Shown here: positions 5,135-30,585 of the stretch, one piece after another
How positions within the stretch are numbered: position 1 is the stretch's first letter
Layout of the letters: each line of letters starts with the position of its first letter
Assembly: GCA_021807595.1 (NCBI GenBank)
Contig: JAKBCS010000030.1
Coordinates: 1 to 42,805, forward strand
Origin: Planctomycetota bacterium
Lineage (GTDB): Bacteria > Planctomycetota > Planctomycetia > Gemmatales > Gemmataceae
DNA length: 42,805 nucleotides
Reading direction: 5' to 3'
Program-made: the position numbers and the translations under genes
Notes under the pieces: generated by a model
Database searches by the model: none
What the model was told of the DNA's origin: nothing
What the model saw: only the letters and a program-made list of their open reading frames with translations

Positions 5135-8100
5135 ATGCGTTCCGTCACTCTCCGAGCCGCCTTCCTGCTCCTGCCCCTCGTCGTCTCGATCGCCACGCTT
5201 CCAACGAATGCCGAGCCGAATGTCGCCTCTTCTCCGCACCGTTCGCCGGAGGAGGAACGCAAACTTTTTCGTCTGCCGCCGGGATTCGAGATTCAACTCG
5301 TCGCCGCCGAGCCGGACATTCACAAGCCGCTCAATCTCGCCTTCGACGATCGCGGTCGATTGTGGGTGACGGATACCATCGAGTATCCGTTTCCGCCGCC
5401 GCCGGGAAAGAAATCGCGCGACAGTGTGAAGATCCTCGAAGACTTCGGCTCCGACGGACGCGCTCGCAAGATCACGAGGTTCGCCGACGATCTCATTATT
5501 CCCATCGGCGTGCTACCCCTGCCGGCTGCCAAGCCGCAAGACGCCCTGGTTTTCAGCATCCCGTCGATTTATCGTCTCCGCGACAGCAAGGGCGGAAGAC
5601 ACGCCGATAGCCGCGAGGTGATGTACACCGAGTATGGCCGGCGGGATACCCACGGCTTGACGGGGTCGTTTACCTGGGGGTTCGACGGTTGGATTTATGC
5701 CGTTCACGGTTTCTCGAACGATTCGACCATTAAGGCCAAGGACGGCAGTTCGATTCACATGCAATCGGGCAATACCTATCGCATGAGGCCCGACGGAAGC
5801 CACATCGAGTATTTCACGCACGGACAGGTCAATCCCTATGGGATCGCCTTCGATCCGCTCGGCAACTTGTACTCCGCCGATTGCCATACCCAGCCGATCT
5901 ATCAACTGTTGCGCGGCGGGTGGTATCCGAGCTTCGGGAAACCGCACGACGGCCTCGGCTTCGCCCCGGAAATGTACAGCGGCTACACGGAATCGACCGC
6001 CGTGGCCGGTCTCGCCTATTACGCCGCCGATAACTTTCCGCCCGATTGGCGCGACAGCGCCTACGTCGGCGATGTCGTCAGTCGCCGCGTCAATCAGTTT
6101 GCCATCGAATGGCACGGATCGAGTCCCAAAGGAATCCTCAAGCGATTCCTTGAGTCCGACGATCCGTGGTTTCGTCCCGTTCACGTTAAACTTGGACCCG
6201 ACGGTGCCTTGTATGTAGCCGATTTTTATAATCGTATTATCGGACATTATGAAGTGCCGCTGACTCATCCCGGACGCGATCGGGACAGCGGACGCATCTG
6301 GCGCATCGTCTACAAAGGAGACAAGCCCGCGGAGCGAGCGAAGGGCTATGGCACACCCGCCCCGCGCACCGATTGGACGACGGCGAGTGTGGCCGAACTT
6401 ATCGAGGATCTAGCCCATCCAAATTTAATGGTGCGCATCCACGCCACCAATCAACTCGTCGAACGCATTCATCCGTCCGAAGCGCAAGCGAAAAACCAAG
6501 ACCGGCAGGCTCTGCGCGATTTGTTCTCGTCGAAAGAAGCAAATGCCTGGAAGTGGATTCATGGCCTGTGGGTTCTGGAACGCATCGCAGCTGGGGGAGA
6601 ATCGCTCTTGGAGGAAGCGGCACACCACAAGGATCGCGGGGTGCGCGCACATGTGCAGCACATCCTCAGCGAGAGGACGAGGTGGACGCGGGGACAGCGC
6701 GATCTGGCGTTGGCCGCACTGAAGGACGCCGATGCCAACGTTCAGCGCGCCGCCGCCGACGCCCTTGGCCGACATCCCGACGCCGACAAGAATCTGCGCC
6801 CTCTTCTCGATCTGCGCCATACTGTGCCGAAAGACGACACGCATCTGTTGTACGTCGTTCGCATGGCCCTGCGCGATCAGTTGCGCACCGCCGACGGATG
6901 GAAGACACTGATGGGCGAAGGCCTGAGCGGACGCGATGCCTATGCCATCGCCGATGTCGCGCTAGGCGTTCCGAGGGAGGAATCCGCCGCCTTTTTGATG
7001 CGCCACCTTCGCAAATACGGCGAAAAAGACGACGTACTAATGCGTATGGTGCAGCATATCGCCCGCTACGGCGACGAGTCGTCGACGACGGCGTTATTGG
7101 CATTCGCGCGCGATCGCCAGCCCGAAGCGCAAGCGAGGGACCACCGCCATCAGCTCGCTCTGTTCCGCGCCATGCAGCGTGGCACGCAAGAGCGAGGCGT
7201 CGGATTGTCGGAGCCGGTTCGCCTCTGGGCCGTCGCGCTGACCGAGCGCCTGCTCGCTTCGAAAGCCGGTGCCGAAATTGAATCCGGCATCAAGCTGATC
7301 GGCGAGTTAAAGCTGAAAGATCGTGGGAAGGATCTGGCGGATCTGGGACGTCGCCCCGGCGCTCCGCTGGGACAGCGCAAGGCTGCCGTGGAGGCATTGG
7401 CCAATCTCGATGTCCGACAAAATGCCACGGTGTTGGGATCGATTTTGAGCGATGTGGCCTCGCCTCCGGCACTGCGCGAGGAGTGCATCAAGCTGTTGGC
7501 TCAGGCGAATCAGAATGCGACTCGCGCGGAGTTGCTCAAGTTCTTGCCGACTGCTCCGGCGCGCTTGCAGACATCGATCGCCGTCGGCTTGGCCACCAGT
7601 CCTGCGGGAGTGGAACAACTGCTCGAAGCGGTGAAAGCCGGCAAGGCTTCGGCGCGTCTGTTGCAAGATCCCACCGTGAAGCCGCGACTGGATGCCAGCC
7701 GTCTGCCGCGCTTAAAGGAACGCCTCGCCGAACTGACTGCCGGTCTGCCTCCGGCGGGCAAAGACATGCAAGACCTAATTCAACGCCGCCGTCAAGGATT
7801 TACCAGAGCGAAAAAGGATCTGAAGCTCGGCGAGGCCGCCTTCATCAAGAACTGTGCCAATTGCCATCAAGTCGCCGGCCAAGGGGCCAAGATCGGCCCG
7901 CAGCTCGATGGCGTCGGCGTGCGCGGTCTCGATCGCCTGCTCGAAGATGTACTCGATCCGAATCGCAACGTCGATCAGGCGTTTCGACAAACGGCGCTCA
8001 CCTTGAAAAACGGACAGGTTCTATCCGGTTTATTACTCAAAGAAGAAGGCGAGGTTTTGGTTTTGGCCGATTCCCAAGGCAAGGAAATCCGCACCTCTAA

Positions 8101-8245
8101 AAACGCCGTCGACGAACGCAGCGTCTCGCAAGTCTCCCCGATGCCCGGCAACTTCGCCGAACAAATCCCGGAGGGCGAGTTCCACAATCTGTTGGCGTAT
8201 CTGCTGACCTTGCAGAGTAAAGCGGAGAAGCCGATGGGGAAATGA
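5135..8245 (+). CDS. PVC-type secreted haem-binding protein with beta-propeller, HEAT repeats and C-terminal cytochrome c domain
   Basis: A 1036-residue exported protein of the planctomycete/verrucomicrobial family annotated as membrane-bound dehydrogenase plus haem-binding domain. A signal peptide (RAAFLLLPLVVSIATLPTNA) is followed by a six-bladed-propeller-type region (about 45-390: PPGFEIQLVAAEPDIHKPLNLAFDD, NPYGIAFDPLGNLYSADCHT, LGPDGALYVADFYNRIIGHYE). An alpha-helical HEAT-like region spans about 420-870. The C-terminal haem domain has CANCH at 907-911 and a probable axial Met at 1003 in SPMPGNF. Family members are thought to act in periplasmic oxidation or polysaccharide-related metabolism, with substrate unknown. 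Start: GAGG upstream of ATG 5135. It appears monocistronic; 8246-8455 carries only small imperfect hairpins. The family call is secure, the reaction is not. Confidence 0.92.
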   Translation: MRSVTLRAAFLLLPLVVSIATLPTNAEPNVASSPHRSPEEERKLFRLPPGFEIQLVAAEPDIHKPLNLAFDDRGRLWVTDTIEYPFPPPPGKKSRDSVKILEDFGSDGRARKITRFADDLIIPIGVLPLPAAKPQDALVFSIPSIYRLRDSKGGRHADSREVMYTEYGRRDTHGLTGSFTWGFDGWIYAVHGFSNDSTIKAKDGSSIHMQSGNTYRMRPDGSHIEYFTHGQVNPYGIAFDPLGNLYSADCHTQPIYQLLRGGWYPSFGKPHDGLGFAPEMYSGYTESTAVAGLAYYAADNFPPDWRDSAYVGDVVSRRVNQFAIEWHGSSPKGILKRFLESDDPWFRPVHVKLGPDGALYVADFYNRIIGHYEVPLTHPGRDRDSGRIWRIVYKGDKPAERAKGYGTPAPRTDWTTASVAELIEDLAHPNLMVRIHATNQLVERIHPSEAQAKNQDRQALRDLFSSKEANAWKWIHGLWVLERIAAGGESLLEEAAHHKDRGVRAHVQHILSERTRWTRGQRDLALAALKDADANVQRAAADALGRHPDADKNLRPLLDLRHTVPKDDTHLLYVVRMALRDQLRTADGWKTLMGEGLSGRDAYAIADVALGVPREESAAFLMRHLRKYGEKDDVLMRMVQHIARYGDESSTTALLAFARDRQPEAQARDHRHQLALFRAMQRGTQERGVGLSEPVRLWAVALTERLLASKAGAEIESGIKLIGELKLKDRGKDLADLGRRPGAPLGQRKAAVEALANLDVRQNATVLGSILSDVASPPALREECIKLLAQANQNATRAELLKFLPTAPARLQTSIAVGLATSPAGVEQLLEAVKAGKASARLLQDPTVKPRLDASRLPRLKERLAELTAGLPPAGKDMQDLIQRRRQGFTRAKKDLKLGEAAFIKNCANCHQVAGQGAKIGPQLDGVGVRGLDRLLEDVLDPNRNVDQAFRQTALTLKNGQVLSGLLLKEEGEVLVLADSQGKEIRTSKNAVDERSVSQVSPMPGNFAEQIPEGEFHNLLAYLLTLQSKAEKPMGK

Positions 8246-8455
8246 GTAGGTTGAAAGGATATGGTTCGGAATAACTTCCCGAACGAGCGGTTCGTCAAGG
8301 TGGGACGAGGTGCGAGTTCCACCCTGCAAGACTTCGAGCCGCGAACGCCGACTACGGAACTGCCTCCGAAAGTTGAGAATGGAAATACGCTAGGGATGAA
8401 CGCGGGATTCTGTGTACAGGGTTTCATCCACGGCTAGTTCTCTCAACGGGGACAG

Positions 8456-9481
8456 ATGGTGGCTACCGTTCCTCGGTTCGCCCTTTCACCTCCCCCTCTT
8501 CCTTGCGTCCCGAATCGCCGAATGGACGGCGTGCCATCGGCGAAGTGCATACGATTGACCCGAACCCGCGCGAATGCGTACAATACTCGTCTGGATTCCT
8601 CCTCGAACCGGCGAACCGTCTCGAACGGAGCGCTCGTCGCCTATGCAAAGGGCCTGTCCTTGATCCTCTTGGTTTTTTTCTTTCCCCTGGCCGTTTATCT
8701 CCTCCTTCTCGGCCTGCTGAATCGTCGCCGCCATTCGTTGCTCGTTTCGGGCATCTGGGATGGCGTTGGTCTGATATTCGGCCTGTCCGGATTCTTGTTA
8801 TTCGCCGGCCCGGCCGTCCTCAGTGCCACCAACGAGCGCTCGCGGATGTTTTGGCTCTTGAGCAAGGGCGATGCACCGCTCGGAGGGGCCGACGGTGCCT
8901 GGCAATTCTGGATCTTTTTGTCGATCCTCTACTTCGCGCTGGTGGTGGGTGGAGTAACCTTTTATTTCTGGAGACAGCGGCGCGTCACCGCCGTCTACAA
9001 CGCCGATCCGAGACAGATCGAAAACGCCTTGGTTGATATTTGCGAGCGACTCGAACTTCGGCCTCTACGTTCCGGCGGATTGTTCCTCTTCGGCTTGAAG
9101 GGAAACTGGACGGAAGCGCGAGACGGATCGAACTTCTCGCGCTTGCAGGCTCCCCACTACTTCTCGGCCTCCACCCATGCCGTGCAGGGCGAGATTTCCT
9201 CCACATCGCCCAATCGAGCGTTCGACCGCGTCTTGTTGGAGCAGACCAGCATCCTCGAAGTAGATGCTTTCCCGTTGATGAACCACGTCACGCTGCGCTG
9301 GGATCCCGTCAATTCACCGTTGCGGGAGACGGTGGAGAACGAATTGAGTCAGCGACTGTCCGAGGTGCCCCCGGCAGATTCCTCGCTCGGAAGTTTGCTG
9401 ATGACGCTGGGTTCGCTGCTGCTGATTTTGGAAGCTGCCGGCGCTTTACTCGTCCTCGCTCTGCGCTACTTGCTGCGCTAG
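8456..9481 (+). CDS. Membrane protein of unknown function, four predicted helices
   Basis: I do not recognise this 341-residue protein. Hydrophobic segments lie at about 64-88, 99-122, 148-172 and 315-340. Between the third and last lies a soluble region of about 140 residues (RQIENALVDICERLELRPLRSGG, then HVTLRWDPV near 280) with no motif I can name. The start is uncertain: ATG 8456 has GGGGACAG close before it, ATG 8522 is in frame, and the first ~55 residues are basic and low-complexity, so the real start may be later. The mature region from about residue 60 is clearly protein-like. It converges on the DUF6807-like gene 47 bp away. A membrane role is inferred from hydropathy alone. Confidence 0.65.
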   Translation: MVATVPRFALSPPPLPCVPNRRMDGVPSAKCIRLTRTRANAYNTRLDSSSNRRTVSNGALVAYAKGLSLILLVFFFPLAVYLLLLGLLNRRRHSLLVSGIWDGVGLIFGLSGFLLFAGPAVLSATNERSRMFWLLSKGDAPLGGADGAWQFWIFLSILYFALVVGGVTFYFWRQRRVTAVYNADPRQIENALVDICERLELRPLRSGGLFLFGLKGNWTEARDGSNFSRLQAPHYFSASTHAVQGEISSTSPNRAFDRVLLEQTSILEVDAFPLMNHVTLRWDPVNSPLRETVENELSQRLSEVPPADSSLGSLLMTLGSLLLILEAAGALLVLALRYLLR

Positions 9482-25619: not shown

Positions 25620-26162
25620 ATGCGCGTCTGGTTCCGAAACGTCTACAATGCCGTCCAAACGGTCGCTCAAGGCATGTACATAACCTTATGGTACTTCCTT
25701 CAGACCTACCGGCGCAAAACCTTTACGGAGCGCTTCGAGTATCCGGAGCTGCCAGTGCCGATCAAACCGCGCTATCGCGGCTTTCATCGCTTCGATCTGA
25801 CCACCTGCATCGGCTGCGACAAGTGCGCCCGTGCCTGTCCGGTCGATTGCATCTACATCGAGAAAATGAAGAATCCCGTGGGCAAGGGCTTCCGCGTAAA
25901 TGGATTTAAGATCGACTACACCAAGTGCATGTTCTGTGCCTTGTGCGTCGATCCTTGTCCGGTGGATTGCATTTTCATGGGATCGACCCACGATCAGAGT
26001 TGCTTCAGCCGCGACGGCTGCATCGTCGATTTCGCCAAGCTGCCGGTGGAAATGGCTTGGGGCCAAGCAACGCTCAATCCCACGGCCGTGGCCGCTTCCA
26101 AACTGCAAGTTGAGCCGGTGTGGACGAAACCACCCGACCCCGCACCCGCCGCTAAAAAATGA
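25620..26162 (+). CDS. nuoI: NADH-quinone oxidoreductase subunit I
   Basis: The ferredoxin-like subunit of complex I that passes electrons through clusters N6a and N6b to NuoB. 180 residues with an amphipathic N-terminus ([20 protein letters not shown]) and two classical 4Fe-4S motifs, [15 protein letters not shown] and [15 protein letters not shown]. The Pro/Ala-rich C-terminal tail is unremarkable. Unusually it stands first in the locus, ahead of nuoA, rather than after nuoH. ATG 25620 has no clear ribosome-binding site. The following DUF2203 gene starts 66 bp later. Confidence 0.95.
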
Positions 26163-26228
26163 CGGTGATCGGCCATCGATCCAATGCGAGGACTGGCCGA
26201 GAGTTGATTGTCGAGAGGAGGTGGAACC

Positions 26229-26663
26229 GTGGTTGCATCGAAGACAGATCGAAAATTCTTTACCGTGGACGAGGCCAACAAAGCTTTGCCGCTTGTCCGC
26301 GCTATCGTGCAGGACATCACCGACTTGGCTTGCGAGTTGCGCGAACGCCACGAACGCCTGATGCGTCTCAAGCCCGACGAACGCCGACGAGTCAGCGAAG
26401 CCCACGAGGAAGAGTTAATCCAGGTGCGCTCGGAAGTGGAGCGCGGGCAAGAGAAAATGGAAGAGTACGTCCGCGAGTTGAAGGATTTGGGAGTGGAGTT
26501 GAAGGATTACTTCACCGGACTGATCGATTTTCCTAGTCTGATGAATGGACACCCGGTTTATTTGTGCTGGCGGCTCGGCGAAGCGGAAGTAGGATATTGG
26601 CACGAACTGGAAGCAGGCTTTTCGGGACGTCAGAAATTGGCTCCGAACGCCCTCCGCAGCTGA
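26229..26663 (+). CDS. DUF2203 family protein
   Basis: A 144-residue, strongly helical protein of the DUF2203 family: FTVDEANKALPLVRAIVQDI at the N-terminus, a long charged coiled-coil middle (LRERHERLMRLKP to MEEYVRELKDLGVELKD) and a C-terminal FPSLMNGHPVYLCWRLGE, GYWHELEAGFSGRQ block, all family-typical. The function of the family is unknown. GTG 26229 has a full AGGAGGTGG site at 26216-26224; a TTG at 26208 is open but lacks such a site. It sits inside the nuo locus between nuoI and nuoA on the same strand. Whether it has any role in complex I is not known; its placement could be accidental. Confidence 0.88.
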   Translation: MVASKTDRKFFTVDEANKALPLVRAIVQDITDLACELRERHERLMRLKPDERRRVSEAHEEELIQVRSEVERGQEKMEEYVRELKDLGVELKDYFTGLIDFPSLMNGHPVYLCWRLGEAEVGYWHELEAGFSGRQKLAPNALRS

Positions 26664-26727: not shown

Positions 26728-27405
26728 ATGACTCCCTTGGTTGCCTATCTGCTTCTCTTCGTTGCCGTTGGCATCGGATTTATTTTTGTCCACTTGATGG
26801 CCGGCAAGCTCATTCGACCCAACAAACCGGATGCCGACAAGGGGACGACCTACGAGTGTGGCGAACCAACCATCGGCAGCGCCTGGATTCAGTTCGATCT
26901 GCGCTTTTATGTCGTGGCATTGTTGTTCGTCATTTTCGATGTCGAGGTGGCGTTCTTCTTCCCCTGGGCCGTGGTGTTCGGTAAAGCCAACGCCTTGGTG
27001 GCTTCCCCCGCGCCCGAAACCGCCGAAGCGTATCATCAATTCAACGAACAGGCTTGGGAAATGGTCCCTCCCGCCTCGAGGAACGACCACGCCGCTGCGG
27101 AACACGATTATCTTCTGGGTGTCACTTCCCAAAAGATCGATCGCTATCGAGAATTGAAAGCCGAGGAACAATCCGCGGGCAAATTGCCCCAAAATAAAAA
27201 AATGGAGTTGGATGACTTGAGCCGTTCGCAGCGAATCGTGGACGAGACTCGGCTTCGGGCGCAATTATTCTCCTGGTTGGCGCTGGGTGAAATCGTAGTG
27301 TTCTTCGGTGTACTATTGGTCGGCTTCGCGTATCTCTGGAAACGAGGCGACCTCGCTTGGGTGCGCAGTCTCGCCGCCGAGCGCCCCGGCGAACCGGCAG
27401 CGTGA
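26728..27405 (+). CDS. nuoA: NADH-quinone oxidoreductase subunit A with a long insertion
   Basis: Membrane-arm subunit at the joint of complex I near the quinone site. Normal NuoA is about 120-140 residues; this has 225. Helix 1 (VAYLLLFVAVGIGFIFVHLMA), the conserved TTYECGEPTIGSAWIQF loop and helix 2 with FDVEVAFFFPWAVV are all present, and helix 3 with its acidic residue (WLALGEIVVFFGVLLVGFAYLW, about 190-211) follows. Between helices 2 and 3 an extra ~95 residues, polar and partly helical (about 92-188), are inserted, including HQFNEQAWEMVPPASRN and ELKAEEQSAGKLPQNKKMELDD. The last few residues are encoded by the left arm of a long hairpin. A weak GGAA site precedes ATG 26728. Function as NuoA is near certain; what the insertion does is unknown. 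Confidence 0.93.
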   Translation: MTPLVAYLLLFVAVGIGFIFVHLMAGKLIRPNKPDADKGTTYECGEPTIGSAWIQFDLRFYVVALLFVIFDVEVAFFFPWAVVFGKANALVASPAPETAEAYHQFNEQAWEMVPPASRNDHAAAEHDYLLGVTSQKIDRYRELKAEEQSAGKLPQNKKMELDDLSRSQRIVDETRLRAQLFSWLALGEIVVFFGVLLVGFAYLWKRGDLAWVRSLAAERPGEPAA

Positions 27406-27455: not shown

Positions 27456-27482
27456 AAGCAACCCTTCGTGGGAGTTTCGATT

Positions 27483-28115
27483 ATGGGATGGTTGGAAGGA
27501 CGTTTTGAAGAGAGCGTCATCACGACTTCTCTGGAACAGGCCATCAACTGGGCGCGTGAGTCGAGCATGTGGCCGATGACGTTCGGTCTCGCCTGTTGCG
27601 CCATCGAGATGATGGCCGCCGGCGCGTCGCGCTTCGACATCGACCGTTTCGGCGCGGGTGCCTTCCGGGCCACGCCGCGCCAGGCCGATCTGATGATCGT
27701 GGCCGGCACGGTCAACTACAAGATGGCCAGCCGGGTCCGCCGCTTGTACAACCAGATGCCCGATCCGAAGTTCGTCATTGCCATGGGCGCTTGCACCTGC
27801 GGCGGCGGGCCCTACTACAAATACGGCTACAACGTCGTCAAGGGCGTCGATCTCGTCGTGCCAGTCGATGTCTACGTCCCCGGCTGCCCGCCGCGGCCGG
27901 AAGCGCTGCTCGAAGGGCTGATGCGCATTCAAGACAAAGTGCGGGCCATGAAGGATCTGACTCATGGACAGCCGCTGACGGTGCCGATCCCGGCGCGGAC
28001 CGGCTACACGCTGCTCCCGCCGGAACTGAACGACCCCGATCCCGTTAAGGCGATGGAGAAACAGAACGCCTTCGCCAAAAAGAACAAGGAACTGGCCGCC
28101 CCCGCCAAGGCATAA
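27483..28115 (+). CDS. nuoB: NADH-quinone oxidoreductase subunit B
   Basis: Carries cluster N2, the last electron carrier before quinone in complex I. 210 residues; all four cluster ligands are visible: Cys38 and Cys39 in [10 protein letters not shown], Cys104 in GACTCGGG, and Cys135 in [14 protein letters not shown]. The core up to about 165 is standard; the tail ([25 protein letters not shown]) is longer and lysine-rich. A GGGAG site precedes ATG 27483; upstream in-frame codons back to 27468 are not family-like. Confidence 0.96.
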
Positions 28116-28207: not shown

Positions 28208-28738
28208 ATGACTGCCGCCGACATTACCGCACTTCTCGAACAACAGTTTGGCTCGCGCATCGCGTCGAAAAATCTCGAAGCCATCGATCCGTTCGTGGTC
28301 GTCGCCGCTGCCGATTTGCCGGATGTGTGTCGATTTCTGCGCGACGATAGTCGTTTGCAGTTCGATCTGCTCAACTGCATCAGCGGCGTCGATTACCTGG
28401 AGCCGGACCCCAAAAAAGCGCCCAAGGCCGGCTTCGATCCGCACCTGGAAGTCGTCTATCACCTGTCGAGTTTCCGCCACCGCCATCGCTTCGTCGTCAA
28501 AGTGATGTTGCCGCGCTGGAAGGACGACAAACCCGGCGAGTTGCCGGAAGTGCCGTCCGTCACCTCGCTATGGGCCGCCGCCAACTGGCACGAACGCGAA
28601 GTCTACGATCTGTCGGGCGTGTGGTTCATCGGCCATCCGGAGCTGACCCGCATCTTGCTGGCCGACGATTGGGTGGGCCATCCGCTGCGAAAGGATTACG
28701 AGTATCCGCTGGAGTATCACGGCATACGCGGTCGGTAG
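28208..28738 (+). CDS. nuoC: NADH-quinone oxidoreductase subunit C
   Basis: The 30-kDa peripheral-arm subunit, 176 residues, not fused to NuoD as it is in Escherichia coli. Signature near the C-terminus: WHEREVYDLSGVWFIGHPEL, then RILLADDWVGHPLRKDYEYPLEYHG, diagnostic of NuoC. The N-terminal part (VVAAADLPDVCRFLRDDSRLQFDLLNCISGVDYLE) matches the usual fold. GGAAGAAACGC precedes ATG 28208. Confidence 0.95.
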   Translation: MTAADITALLEQQFGSRIASKNLEAIDPFVVVAAADLPDVCRFLRDDSRLQFDLLNCISGVDYLEPDPKKAPKAGFDPHLEVVYHLSSFRHRHRFVVKVMLPRWKDDKPGELPEVPSVTSLWAAANWHEREVYDLSGVWFIGHPELTRILLADDWVGHPLRKDYEYPLEYHGIRGR

Positions 28739-28750
28739 GGAGGAGCGGAC

Positions 28751-29350
28751 ATGAAGACGAAAACGCGGAGAGGCAGCTATACCTACGAAGACTTCTGCGC
28801 GCTCATTCGTGAGGACCAGAAAGCAGATCTCATCGATGGAGTCATCTACATGGCTTCGCCCGAGAACATCGATGCCAACGATCTGTTTGGCTGGCTGTTT
28901 GCCGTGATGTCCATCTTTGCCGAGGAAAGAAAATTGGGCCGCATCTTCGGCTCCCGCGTAGCCTGTCGCCTCGACGATCACAACGCTCCAGAGCCGGATA
29001 TTCTCTTTGTCCGCCACGAACACGACGACCGCGTTTATCGCGGCGGCGTGGAAGGAGCCCCGGATCTCGCCATCGAGATCGTCTCGCCCGAAAGCGTCGA
29101 ACGCGATTACGAGGACAAACGGAAGAAGTATCAACGATTCGGTGTATCCGAATACTGGATCATCGACGAAGAGGAAAAGTCCATTTTGCTGCTTCGTTTG
29201 AGTTCTCGAGGTCGCTATCGAGAAATCAAACCTCGCGGCGGAGTATTGCGTAGTGAGGTGCTGACGGGTTTTTGGCTCGATCCCAATTGGCTTTGGCAGC
29301 ATCCACGCCCTCCGCGATTGGCAATCGTCCAGCAACTCCTCGCCGAGTAG
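28751..29350 (+). CDS. Uma2 family putative endonuclease
   Basis: A 199-residue member of the Uma2 family (formerly DUF820) with a PD-(D/E)XK nuclease core. The start YTYEDFCALIREDQKADLIDGVIYMASP is typical; the probable active site comprises Asp83 in EPDILFV, Glu109 in APDLAIEIVSPES, and the following YEDKRKKYQRFGVSEYWIIDE. These genes occur in large numbers in cyanobacteria and planctomycetes and no physiological role is known to me. It has a strong GGGAGGAG site, lies 12 bp after nuoC and 17 bp before nuoD, and so is very likely co-transcribed with both. The active-site residues look intact. Confidence 0.88.
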   Translation: MKTKTRRGSYTYEDFCALIREDQKADLIDGVIYMASPENIDANDLFGWLFAVMSIFAEERKLGRIFGSRVACRLDDHNAPEPDILFVRHEHDDRVYRGGVEGAPDLAIEIVSPESVERDYEDKRKKYQRFGVSEYWIIDEEEKSILLLRLSSRGRYREIKPRGGVLRSEVLTGFWLDPNWLWQHPRPPRLAIVQQLLAE

Positions 29351-29367: not shown

Positions 29368-30585
29368 ATGGCCACCGTCGCACCCCCCGAAGGCAAACAA
29401 GATCAAACCCTCATCGAGTTCGATGTCCGCACCGATGAGATGCTCGTCAACATGGGGCCGCAGCATCCCAGCACGCACGGCGTGTTGCGCCTGGTGTTGC
29501 GCACCGACGGCGAGGTCATCTCGGAAGTCACTCCGCACCTGGGTTATCTGCATCGCTGCGCCGAGAAGATCGGCGAGAATGTGACGCCGATTCAGTTCAT
29601 CCCCTATACCGACCGCATGGATTATCTGGCCGGGATGAACATGAACCTGGCCTACTCGTTGGCGGTCGAGAAACTGTGCGGCATGAAGCTGCCGGAGAAA
29701 GCCAACGTCATCCGCGTCCTCATCGCCGAACTGAACCGCATCGCCAGCCACCTCGTCGGCATGGGCGCATACGGACTCGATCTGGGCACCTTCAGCCCGT
29801 TTTTGTACGCCTTCCGCGAACGCGAGATGATTCTCGATCTGTTCGAGGAAGTATGCGGCGCGCGGCTGACCTACAGCTACATCACCATCGGCGGCGCTCA
29901 CGACGACTTGCCGTCCGGCTGGGTCGAACGCTGCCGCGAGTTTCTCAATTATCTGAAGCCGCGCATTCCGGAGTATCACGCTCTCTTAACGACGAATCAC
30001 ATCTTCGTGCAGCGCACGGCCAACATCGGCGTGTTATCCAGGGAGGCGGCCATCGCCCACGGCTGCACCGGCCCCATGCTGCGCGGCTCGTTGGATCGAC
30101 GCCTGGGCGATCCCGATTGGGATCTGCGTAAGATCGAACCGTACTGCGGCTATGAGACTTACGATTTCAACGCCGTGGTGCCGCCGTTCGACGATCGCTG
30201 GGGTTGGAATCCGCCCCGCGATTCGGTGATCGGCGACGCCTGGCACCGCTTCATGGTCCGCATGTTGGAAGTGATCGAGAGTATTCGTCTCTGCGAACAA
30301 GCACTGGATCGCTATCCGAACGCGCAGGGATCGCACCGCATCGAGATGCCACGCCATCTAACGGCTGGCGAAACCTACGTTGAGACCGAGTGTCCGCGCG
30401 GGCAGATGGGTTTCTACGTCGTGGGCGCGCCGGGTAAAGGCGTGGTACCGCTGCGCGTGCGGGCGCGGTCGTCGAGTTTCTGCAATCTCTGCGTCACCAA
30501 CGAAATCAGCAGCGGCTGCCTCATCGCCGACGTCCCCGCCATCGTCGGCAGCATCGACATCGTGATGGGAGAGATAGACAGGTGA
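29368..30585 (+). CDS. nuoD: NADH-quinone oxidoreductase subunit D
   Basis: The 49-kDa subunit, which with NuoB forms the quinone-reduction site. 405 residues; MGPQHPSTHGVLRLVLRTDGE, the HLGYLHRCAEKIGEN block, DRMDYLAGMNMNLAYSLAVE, AHGCTGPMLRG and the invariant end DIVMGEIDR are all present. Homologous to the large subunit of NiFe hydrogenases but without the nickel cysteines, as expected. AGGAAAATAAT precedes ATG 29368. It is the last nuo gene in the window; downstream lie a hairpin and a repeat, then a gene on the opposite strand. Confidence 0.96.
   Translation: MATVAPPEGKQDQTLIEFDVRTDEMLVNMGPQHPSTHGVLRLVLRTDGEVISEVTPHLGYLHRCAEKIGENVTPIQFIPYTDRMDYLAGMNMNLAYSLAVEKLCGMKLPEKANVIRVLIAELNRIASHLVGMGAYGLDLGTFSPFLYAFREREMILDLFEEVCGARLTYSYITIGGAHDDLPSGWVERCREFLNYLKPRIPEYHALLTTNHIFVQRTANIGVLSREAAIAHGCTGPMLRGSLDRRLGDPDWDLRKIEPYCGYETYDFNAVVPPFDDRWGWNPPRDSVIGDAWHRFMVRMLEVIESIRLCEQALDRYPNAQGSHRIEMPRHLTAGETYVETECPRGQMGFYVVGAPGKGVVPLRVRARSSSFCNLCVTNEISSGCLIADVPAIVGSIDIVMGEIDR

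Follow-up and report, generated by a model that had tools for sequence, protein, structure and literature searches.

A long TM2-TM3 insertion in NuoA of planctomycete complex I: a candidate lineage-specific periplasmic extension

Few core subunits of complex I are as small as ND3/NuoA, whose outer loop is usually almost absent. Among 30 distinct PDB sequences matched as NuoA relatives, 29 are 110-154 amino acids long; the remaining one has 279 and was matched at its residues 175-246, so that its surplus looks N-terminal. Extensions have been described in other core subunits. In Paracoccus denitrificans, hairpins of ND4 and ND2 are presented, in the available part of PMC11522691, as stabilising a domain where NDUFA8 and NDUFS5 are found in mammals, and the insertion between TMH14 and TMH15 of ND5 as flexible, with 44 disordered residues. 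Escherichia coli NuoG carries a ‘G-loop’ of 94 residues, to which a stabilising effect on the peripheral arm is ascribed (PMC8357420, excerpts). As to planctomycetes, no title or abstract in the literature that we found deals with an insertion in NuoA or with enlarged periplasmic loops in complex I; PMC11588811, PMC8567305 and PMC10632474 refer to NADH dehydrogenase or nuo genes of planctomycetes, and the sections available note no insertion.

The stretch of DNA analysed here (the window, 42 805 nucleotides, from a Planctomycetota bacterium of the family Gemmataceae) contains a nuoA gene at 26728-27405, encoding 225 amino acids. It lies in a common cluster with nuoI (25620-26162, a 4Fe-4S protein) and is followed by nuoB (27468-28115), nuoC (28208-28738) and nuoD (29368-30585), all on the plus strand. 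Two further genes on that strand interrupt the series: a DUF2203 gene (26208-26663) between nuoI and nuoA, and a Uma2-type gene (28751-29350; PF05685, putative restriction endonuclease) between nuoC and nuoD. The former has matches in 68 of 141 nuoA loci, some of which are one genome counted twice, and the latter in four of the 141, among them the window's own locus (L065); the others are L069 and the pair L001 and L066, which come from one genome. In L001, from the same genus, the Uma2-type gene occupies the same position as in the window (8049-8645).

The window protein shares with NuoA, ND3 and Nqo7 (Oxidored_q4) the three transmembrane helices, the ECGE motif (residues 43-46), the acidic TM2 residues D71 and E73 and the adjacent nuoB; what sets it apart from them is the TM2-TM3 loop, enlarged by 94 residues. 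The landmarks of the family, which the initial annotation had called intact, are indeed invariant in 28 aligned NuoA sequences: Y42-E43-C44-G45-E46, D71, E73, P79-W80-A81, W204 and W211. The Pfam match passes the gathering score amply (104.6 bits, cut-off 23.3), albeit in two stretches, the better of which ends at residue 88; likewise, a search of the genome with Oxidored_q4 returned nuoA in two pieces, 26785-26991 and 27271-27360. Against the NCBIfam equivalog PRK07756.1 (NF005839), the protein scores 93.4 bits for a cut-off of 163, with its best stretch at residues 8-87, a shortfall that the split match probably explains. We therefore assign it to Oxidored_q4 and make no claim to NF005839. 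Annotators should be warned that the window protein falls under the cut-offs of all NCBIfam NuoA models that it matched.

Relative to E. coli NuoA, the alignment shows a gain of 94 residues between TM2 and TM3 and none between TM1 and TM2. The insert comprises amino acids 92-185 (27001-27282), in good agreement with the insertion of about 95 residues at 27000-27290 read initially from the letters alone, and it is polar as stated there, with 12 K+R and 16 D+E among its 94 residues. Its GC content is 0.55, versus 0.57 for the rest of nuoA, and its GC3 0.61 versus 0.70. An assembly artefact is unlikely because another genome from this genus (G039; L001/L066) has an insert of equal length, 81% identical over 83 compared residues and gapless.

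On which side of the membrane the insert lies follows from the preceding loop. The TM1-TM2 loop (amino acids 30-51, 26815-26880) contains Cys44 and lies on the quinone side, as judged by alignments and by the accessible parts of PMC11522691 and PMC6206036, the latter placing the ND3 TMH1-2 loop at the ubiquinone pocket. In the alignment of the window protein to the Paracoccus chain 8qby, residue 8 pairs with 11 and, with no gap in between, Cys44 with 47. PMC3990385, in the part available, agrees on the matrix side for the Cys39 loop but locates it between the second and third segments; we follow PMC6206036 and the window alignment, which place it between the first and second. Since a single helix, TM2 (amino acids 52-81, 26881-26970), separates this loop from the insert, the insert faces the periplasm, a position that rests on alignment to proteins of known topology. 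The charges of the E. coli NuoA loops agree with it (1 K+R on the periplasmic side, 14 on the cytosolic side).

The insert is predicted to be helical, as the initial annotation had partly supposed. In an AlphaFold2 model built from 28 sequences (mean pLDDT 81.8), helices are predicted at residues 99-111, 121-130 and 134-150, joining TM2, whose helix continues to residue 92, to TM3 (about amino acids 184-205, 27277-27342), whose helix begins at 155. The means of ten-residue blocks are 90-97 over residues 81-190 and lowest in the TM1-TM2 loop and at the C-terminus; the input is shallow, with three close sequences covering the insert, so the high helix values may mislead. A relative of 453 residues (L016) is also predicted mostly helical, with 298 of its residues at pLDDT 70-90. 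Fold comparisons used the whole NuoA model rather than the insert alone, and we claim no novelty of fold: Foldseek returned nothing at E 0.001 or better (best E 0.48), and the best VIA-align Z of 7.0 is within the range common for helical models and uninformative. NarQ and a QseG-QseE complex among the VIA-align rows were taken as generic helical bundles. No Pfam domain scored above cut-off in the window insert or in two long inserts of relatives, and the best match of the window insert in a PDB sequence search had an E of only 0.4.

The reading we prefer, with a probability of roughly 45%, is that the insert is a built-in periplasmic extension of NuoA, lineage-specific and helical, most likely stabilising the membrane arm. 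TM2 and TM3 would be lengthened outward and the three extra helices would join them into a small helical cap. By analogy with core-subunit extensions elsewhere, such a cap would buttress the periplasmic side, helping assembly or stability; no catalytic role is proposed. It would lie next to NuoH and NuoJ. The insert is one part of a wider trait of planctomycete complex I, namely enlarged periplasmic loops of NuoA, NuoL, NuoM, NuoJ and NuoH.

The distribution of the long loop was followed in 31 loci from a first contig search and then in the class Planctomycetia, where 351 of the 397 genomes searched had a NuoA match and 80 regions were retrieved; this set was picked by similarity to the window NuoA and is thus biased to its lineage. 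From Planctomycetia genomes, or records titled planctomycete, we obtained 119 distinct loops of the window NuoA lineage with 12-309 extra residues; they exclude the second copy in the window's own genome (L032, 14 extra residues) and three loci (L095, L051 and L057) whose lengths could not be measured. At least 30 extra residues are present in 116 of them, the longest having 286 (L072) and 309 (L076), and 12-14 in the other three, from three genomes. In eleven genomes of family f3, the better-scoring NuoA copy has 0-5 extra residues (L250 by eye). Outside the class, the best 28 loci contained no long loop (0-8 extra residues in the 18 measured by pattern, the other 10 assessed by eye), in a set that was found with an uninserted query and is therefore biased against inserts. 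Three odd rows were examined besides: G459 has 21 extra residues, G549 none, and G598 (L319) a dissimilar insert of 161 residues at the same NuoA site, by eye unlike those of Planctomycetia. Judged by these sequences, the long loop typifies one NuoA lineage of Planctomycetia, and the TM2-TM3 site has probably been used for insertion more than once.

Such a pattern could also be produced by neutral loop growth, in which the periplasmic helix ends simply tolerate additional residues that are functionless, or needed only via later ratcheting. This is a serious rival, quite possible although we hold it short of an even chance, and it accounts for the turnover of the insert almost as well as a structural role does. 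Both length and sequence of the insert turn over greatly. A BLAST search with the window insert found its own genus only (81% and about 38% identity), plus one weak match (L004/L079, E 0.057), and in 20 pairs the insert dN was 2.7-10.4 times the core dN. The minimal versions in the three genomes above, the second NuoA copies of family f3, which have 13 to 39 extra residues in 11 of 11 genomes, and the G598 insert, in which no Pfam domain was found at E 0.01, are all of the kind that neutral growth would leave. Neutrality is less easily reconciled with the insert dN/dS, which is below 0.45, and so well under 1, in every one of the 16 pairs for which insert dS is defined (it is undefined in 4 of the 20, and core dS in one other), or with the absence of gaps from the insert in 13 of the 20 pairs. 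The insert thus looks loosely constrained at the sequence level. Its base is more stable: directly after TM2, a V-F-G-K-A-x-x-L-x-D motif is widely conserved, and among 116 distinct loops the positions after PWA have Gly in 114 (position 4), Lys in 71 (5), Leu in 88 (9) and Asp in 63 (11). This motif, like the helices predicted with high confidence, also speaks against neutral growth. Further in, an ELG-type pattern is found in 35 of 61 loops of other orders versus 0 of 55 Gemmatales loops, orders having been assigned here, partly from record titles.

The initial annotation had named three observations that would speak against a function, namely absence from sister species, high sequence variability and predicted disorder. 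The first is contradicted by the 119 loops, all of which have extra residues, and the second holds, given the near-limitation of BLAST matches to the genus. Disorder is a divided case: the window insert is predicted ordered, and four relatives (L014, L019, L150 and L152) have short inserts rich in Ala, Pro, Ser, Thr, Gly and Gln (fraction 0.63-0.69 versus 0.38 in the window).

The remainder of complex I was considered next to NuoA. Two sets are present in the genome, which is 95.5% complete: Ia, made up of the window and contig C233 (H, J, K, L, M and a cut N), and Ib, on contigs C68 (A to I) and C227 (J to N). A, F, H, L, M and N were identified by Pfam, H and J-N also by E. coli alignment; in Ib, B-E, G and I were assigned by eye. 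That the window and C233 encode one complex is deduced from their co-occurrence and from genomes in which such genes stand together; in G147, nuoA and nuoM are separated by 8 kb. In the genome at this completeness, and given this deduced link, no NuoE, NuoF or NuoG of its own was found for Ia. The two NuoF-type matches are in the second set (C68) and on contig C1, the latter beside NuoE- and NuoG-N-like genes (L191, 93-3052, minus strand), a cluster that, in our estimation, resembles the HoxEFU diaphorase. An 11-subunit form of complex I, which lacks NuoEFG, is conceivable for Ia. On C233, a PpiC-type prolyl isomerase with a SurA-like N-terminus (L186, 2769-4145, minus strand) lies beside nuoH on the opposite strand, the called ORFs overlapping.

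Loop growth in both sets is strongly biased to one membrane face, which speaks against neutral growth. Relative to E. coli, the 20 internal periplasmic loops of Ia (NuoN, cut by the contig end, is excluded) have a net gain of 450 amino acids and the 23 cytosolic loops a gain of 63 (Mann-Whitney p 0.003); in Ib, 26 periplasmic loops gain 422 and 30 cytosolic loops 34 (p 2.6e-5). E. coli is the only reference for these lengths, transmembrane centres came from a hydropathy script, and long loops could be aligned only approximately. Set Ib has large inserts of its own in NuoH TM2-3 (+106; L187, C68, 672-2147) and NuoJ TM4-5 (+127; L188, C227, 11071-12147). As controls from the same genome, few in number, two COX1 proteins have no comparable insertion, and SecY shows, apart from an extension at its N-terminus, one internal gap of +14 and a few of 2-4. 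In a survey of 41 genomes of the class, in which loops were counted only if covered at both helix ends (34-40 genomes per loop; G062 and G286 lack a NuoA length, G145 a usable NuoL or NuoM), median gains were +59, +70 and +26 for NuoL TM2-3, TM6-7 and TM14-15, +27 and +76 for NuoM TM2-3 and TM6-7, +28 for NuoJ TM4-5 and +21 for NuoH TM6-7. Most cytosolic loops are not enlarged, the exceptions being NuoL loops 1, 3 and 15 (medians +10, +20 and +27).

The idea that all this growth is peculiar to Planctomycetia held only in part. Among 14-15 loci from outside the class (subunits being the best-scoring ORFs beside NuoA in 20 regions), NuoM TM2-3, NuoL TM14-15 and NuoH TM6-7 are also enlarged (medians +67, +46 and +20). 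There is little or no growth at NuoL TM2-3 (+7) and TM6-7 (+9), NuoM TM6-7 (-2) and NuoJ TM4-5 (+3), although individual genomes reach +43 to +362 at these four loops. Covariation between the NuoA insert and NuoH TM6-7 was likewise not kept. Their lengths correlate, with a Spearman coefficient of 0.58 (n=33) and 0.83 in Gemmataceae (n=16), but with correction for kinship by independent contrasts r drops to 0.22 (p 0.21), and none of the 11 loops tested against the NuoA insert in this way reaches 0.05 (best NuoL TM2-3, p 0.07).

All in all, the periplasm-biased growth, the predicted fold, the dN/dS below 0.45 and the conserved base of the insert argue for an extension with a stabilising role. 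The near-confinement of BLAST matches to the genus, the range of lengths, the failed covariation, the shallow alignment behind the model and the disorder reported for Paracoccus ND5 argue against it. Another possibility, which we consider improbable, is that a separate partner in the periplasm, such as another respiratory complex, a cytochrome or the envelope, docks on the insert. Polar helices predicted on the periplasmic face, and the size of the insert in some genomes (309 amino acids, predicted mostly helical), would suit such a platform; the poor conservation beyond the genus and the lack of a Foldseek match at the threshold given above do not. Finally, the initial annotation had placed the insert near the quinone site and the mobile TM1-2 loop. 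This placement is wrong: NuoA does bear that loop, with Cys44, but on the membrane face opposite to the insert (alignments; PMC11522691 and PMC6206036, both in part). A strong form of the idea, in which the insert would influence the site or the loop, is most improbable. The built-in accessory subunit, docking site or assembly element that the annotation had envisaged is still conceivable.

Precedents for a structural role are the hairpins of ND4 and ND2 in Paracoccus and the NuoG loop of E. coli. The G-loop, as far as the accessible part of PMC8357420 describes it, resembles the window insert in being a lineage-specific insertion of similar size in a core subunit; it differs in belonging to the peripheral arm, with contacts seen by structure, whereas the window insert is periplasmic and was predicted here as part of a single chain. 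The Paracoccus extensions of ND4, ND2 and ND5 are on the same face as the window insert, and the available sections of PMC11522691 give positions that overlap with those enlarged here, namely TMH2-3 and TMH6-7 of ND4/NuoM and TMH6-7 and TMH14-15 of ND5/NuoL. The overlap with planctomycetes was assessed by position, and no periplasmic extension of ND3/NuoA is named in those sections. The Paracoccus ND5 insertion is largely disordered, and therefore such inserts need not be ordered. The series of lengths from 12 to 309 extra residues within one class makes the role of the NuoA insert testable. One may go further and imagine, although we think it rather unlikely, that these bacteria form a periplasmic accessory layer from their own core subunits, with a NuoA domain of up to ~309 residues, in the place held by intermembrane-space subunits in mitochondria. 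If these extensions do stabilise the enzyme, they would represent one more solution, reached independently, to a problem for which mitochondria use supernumerary subunits.
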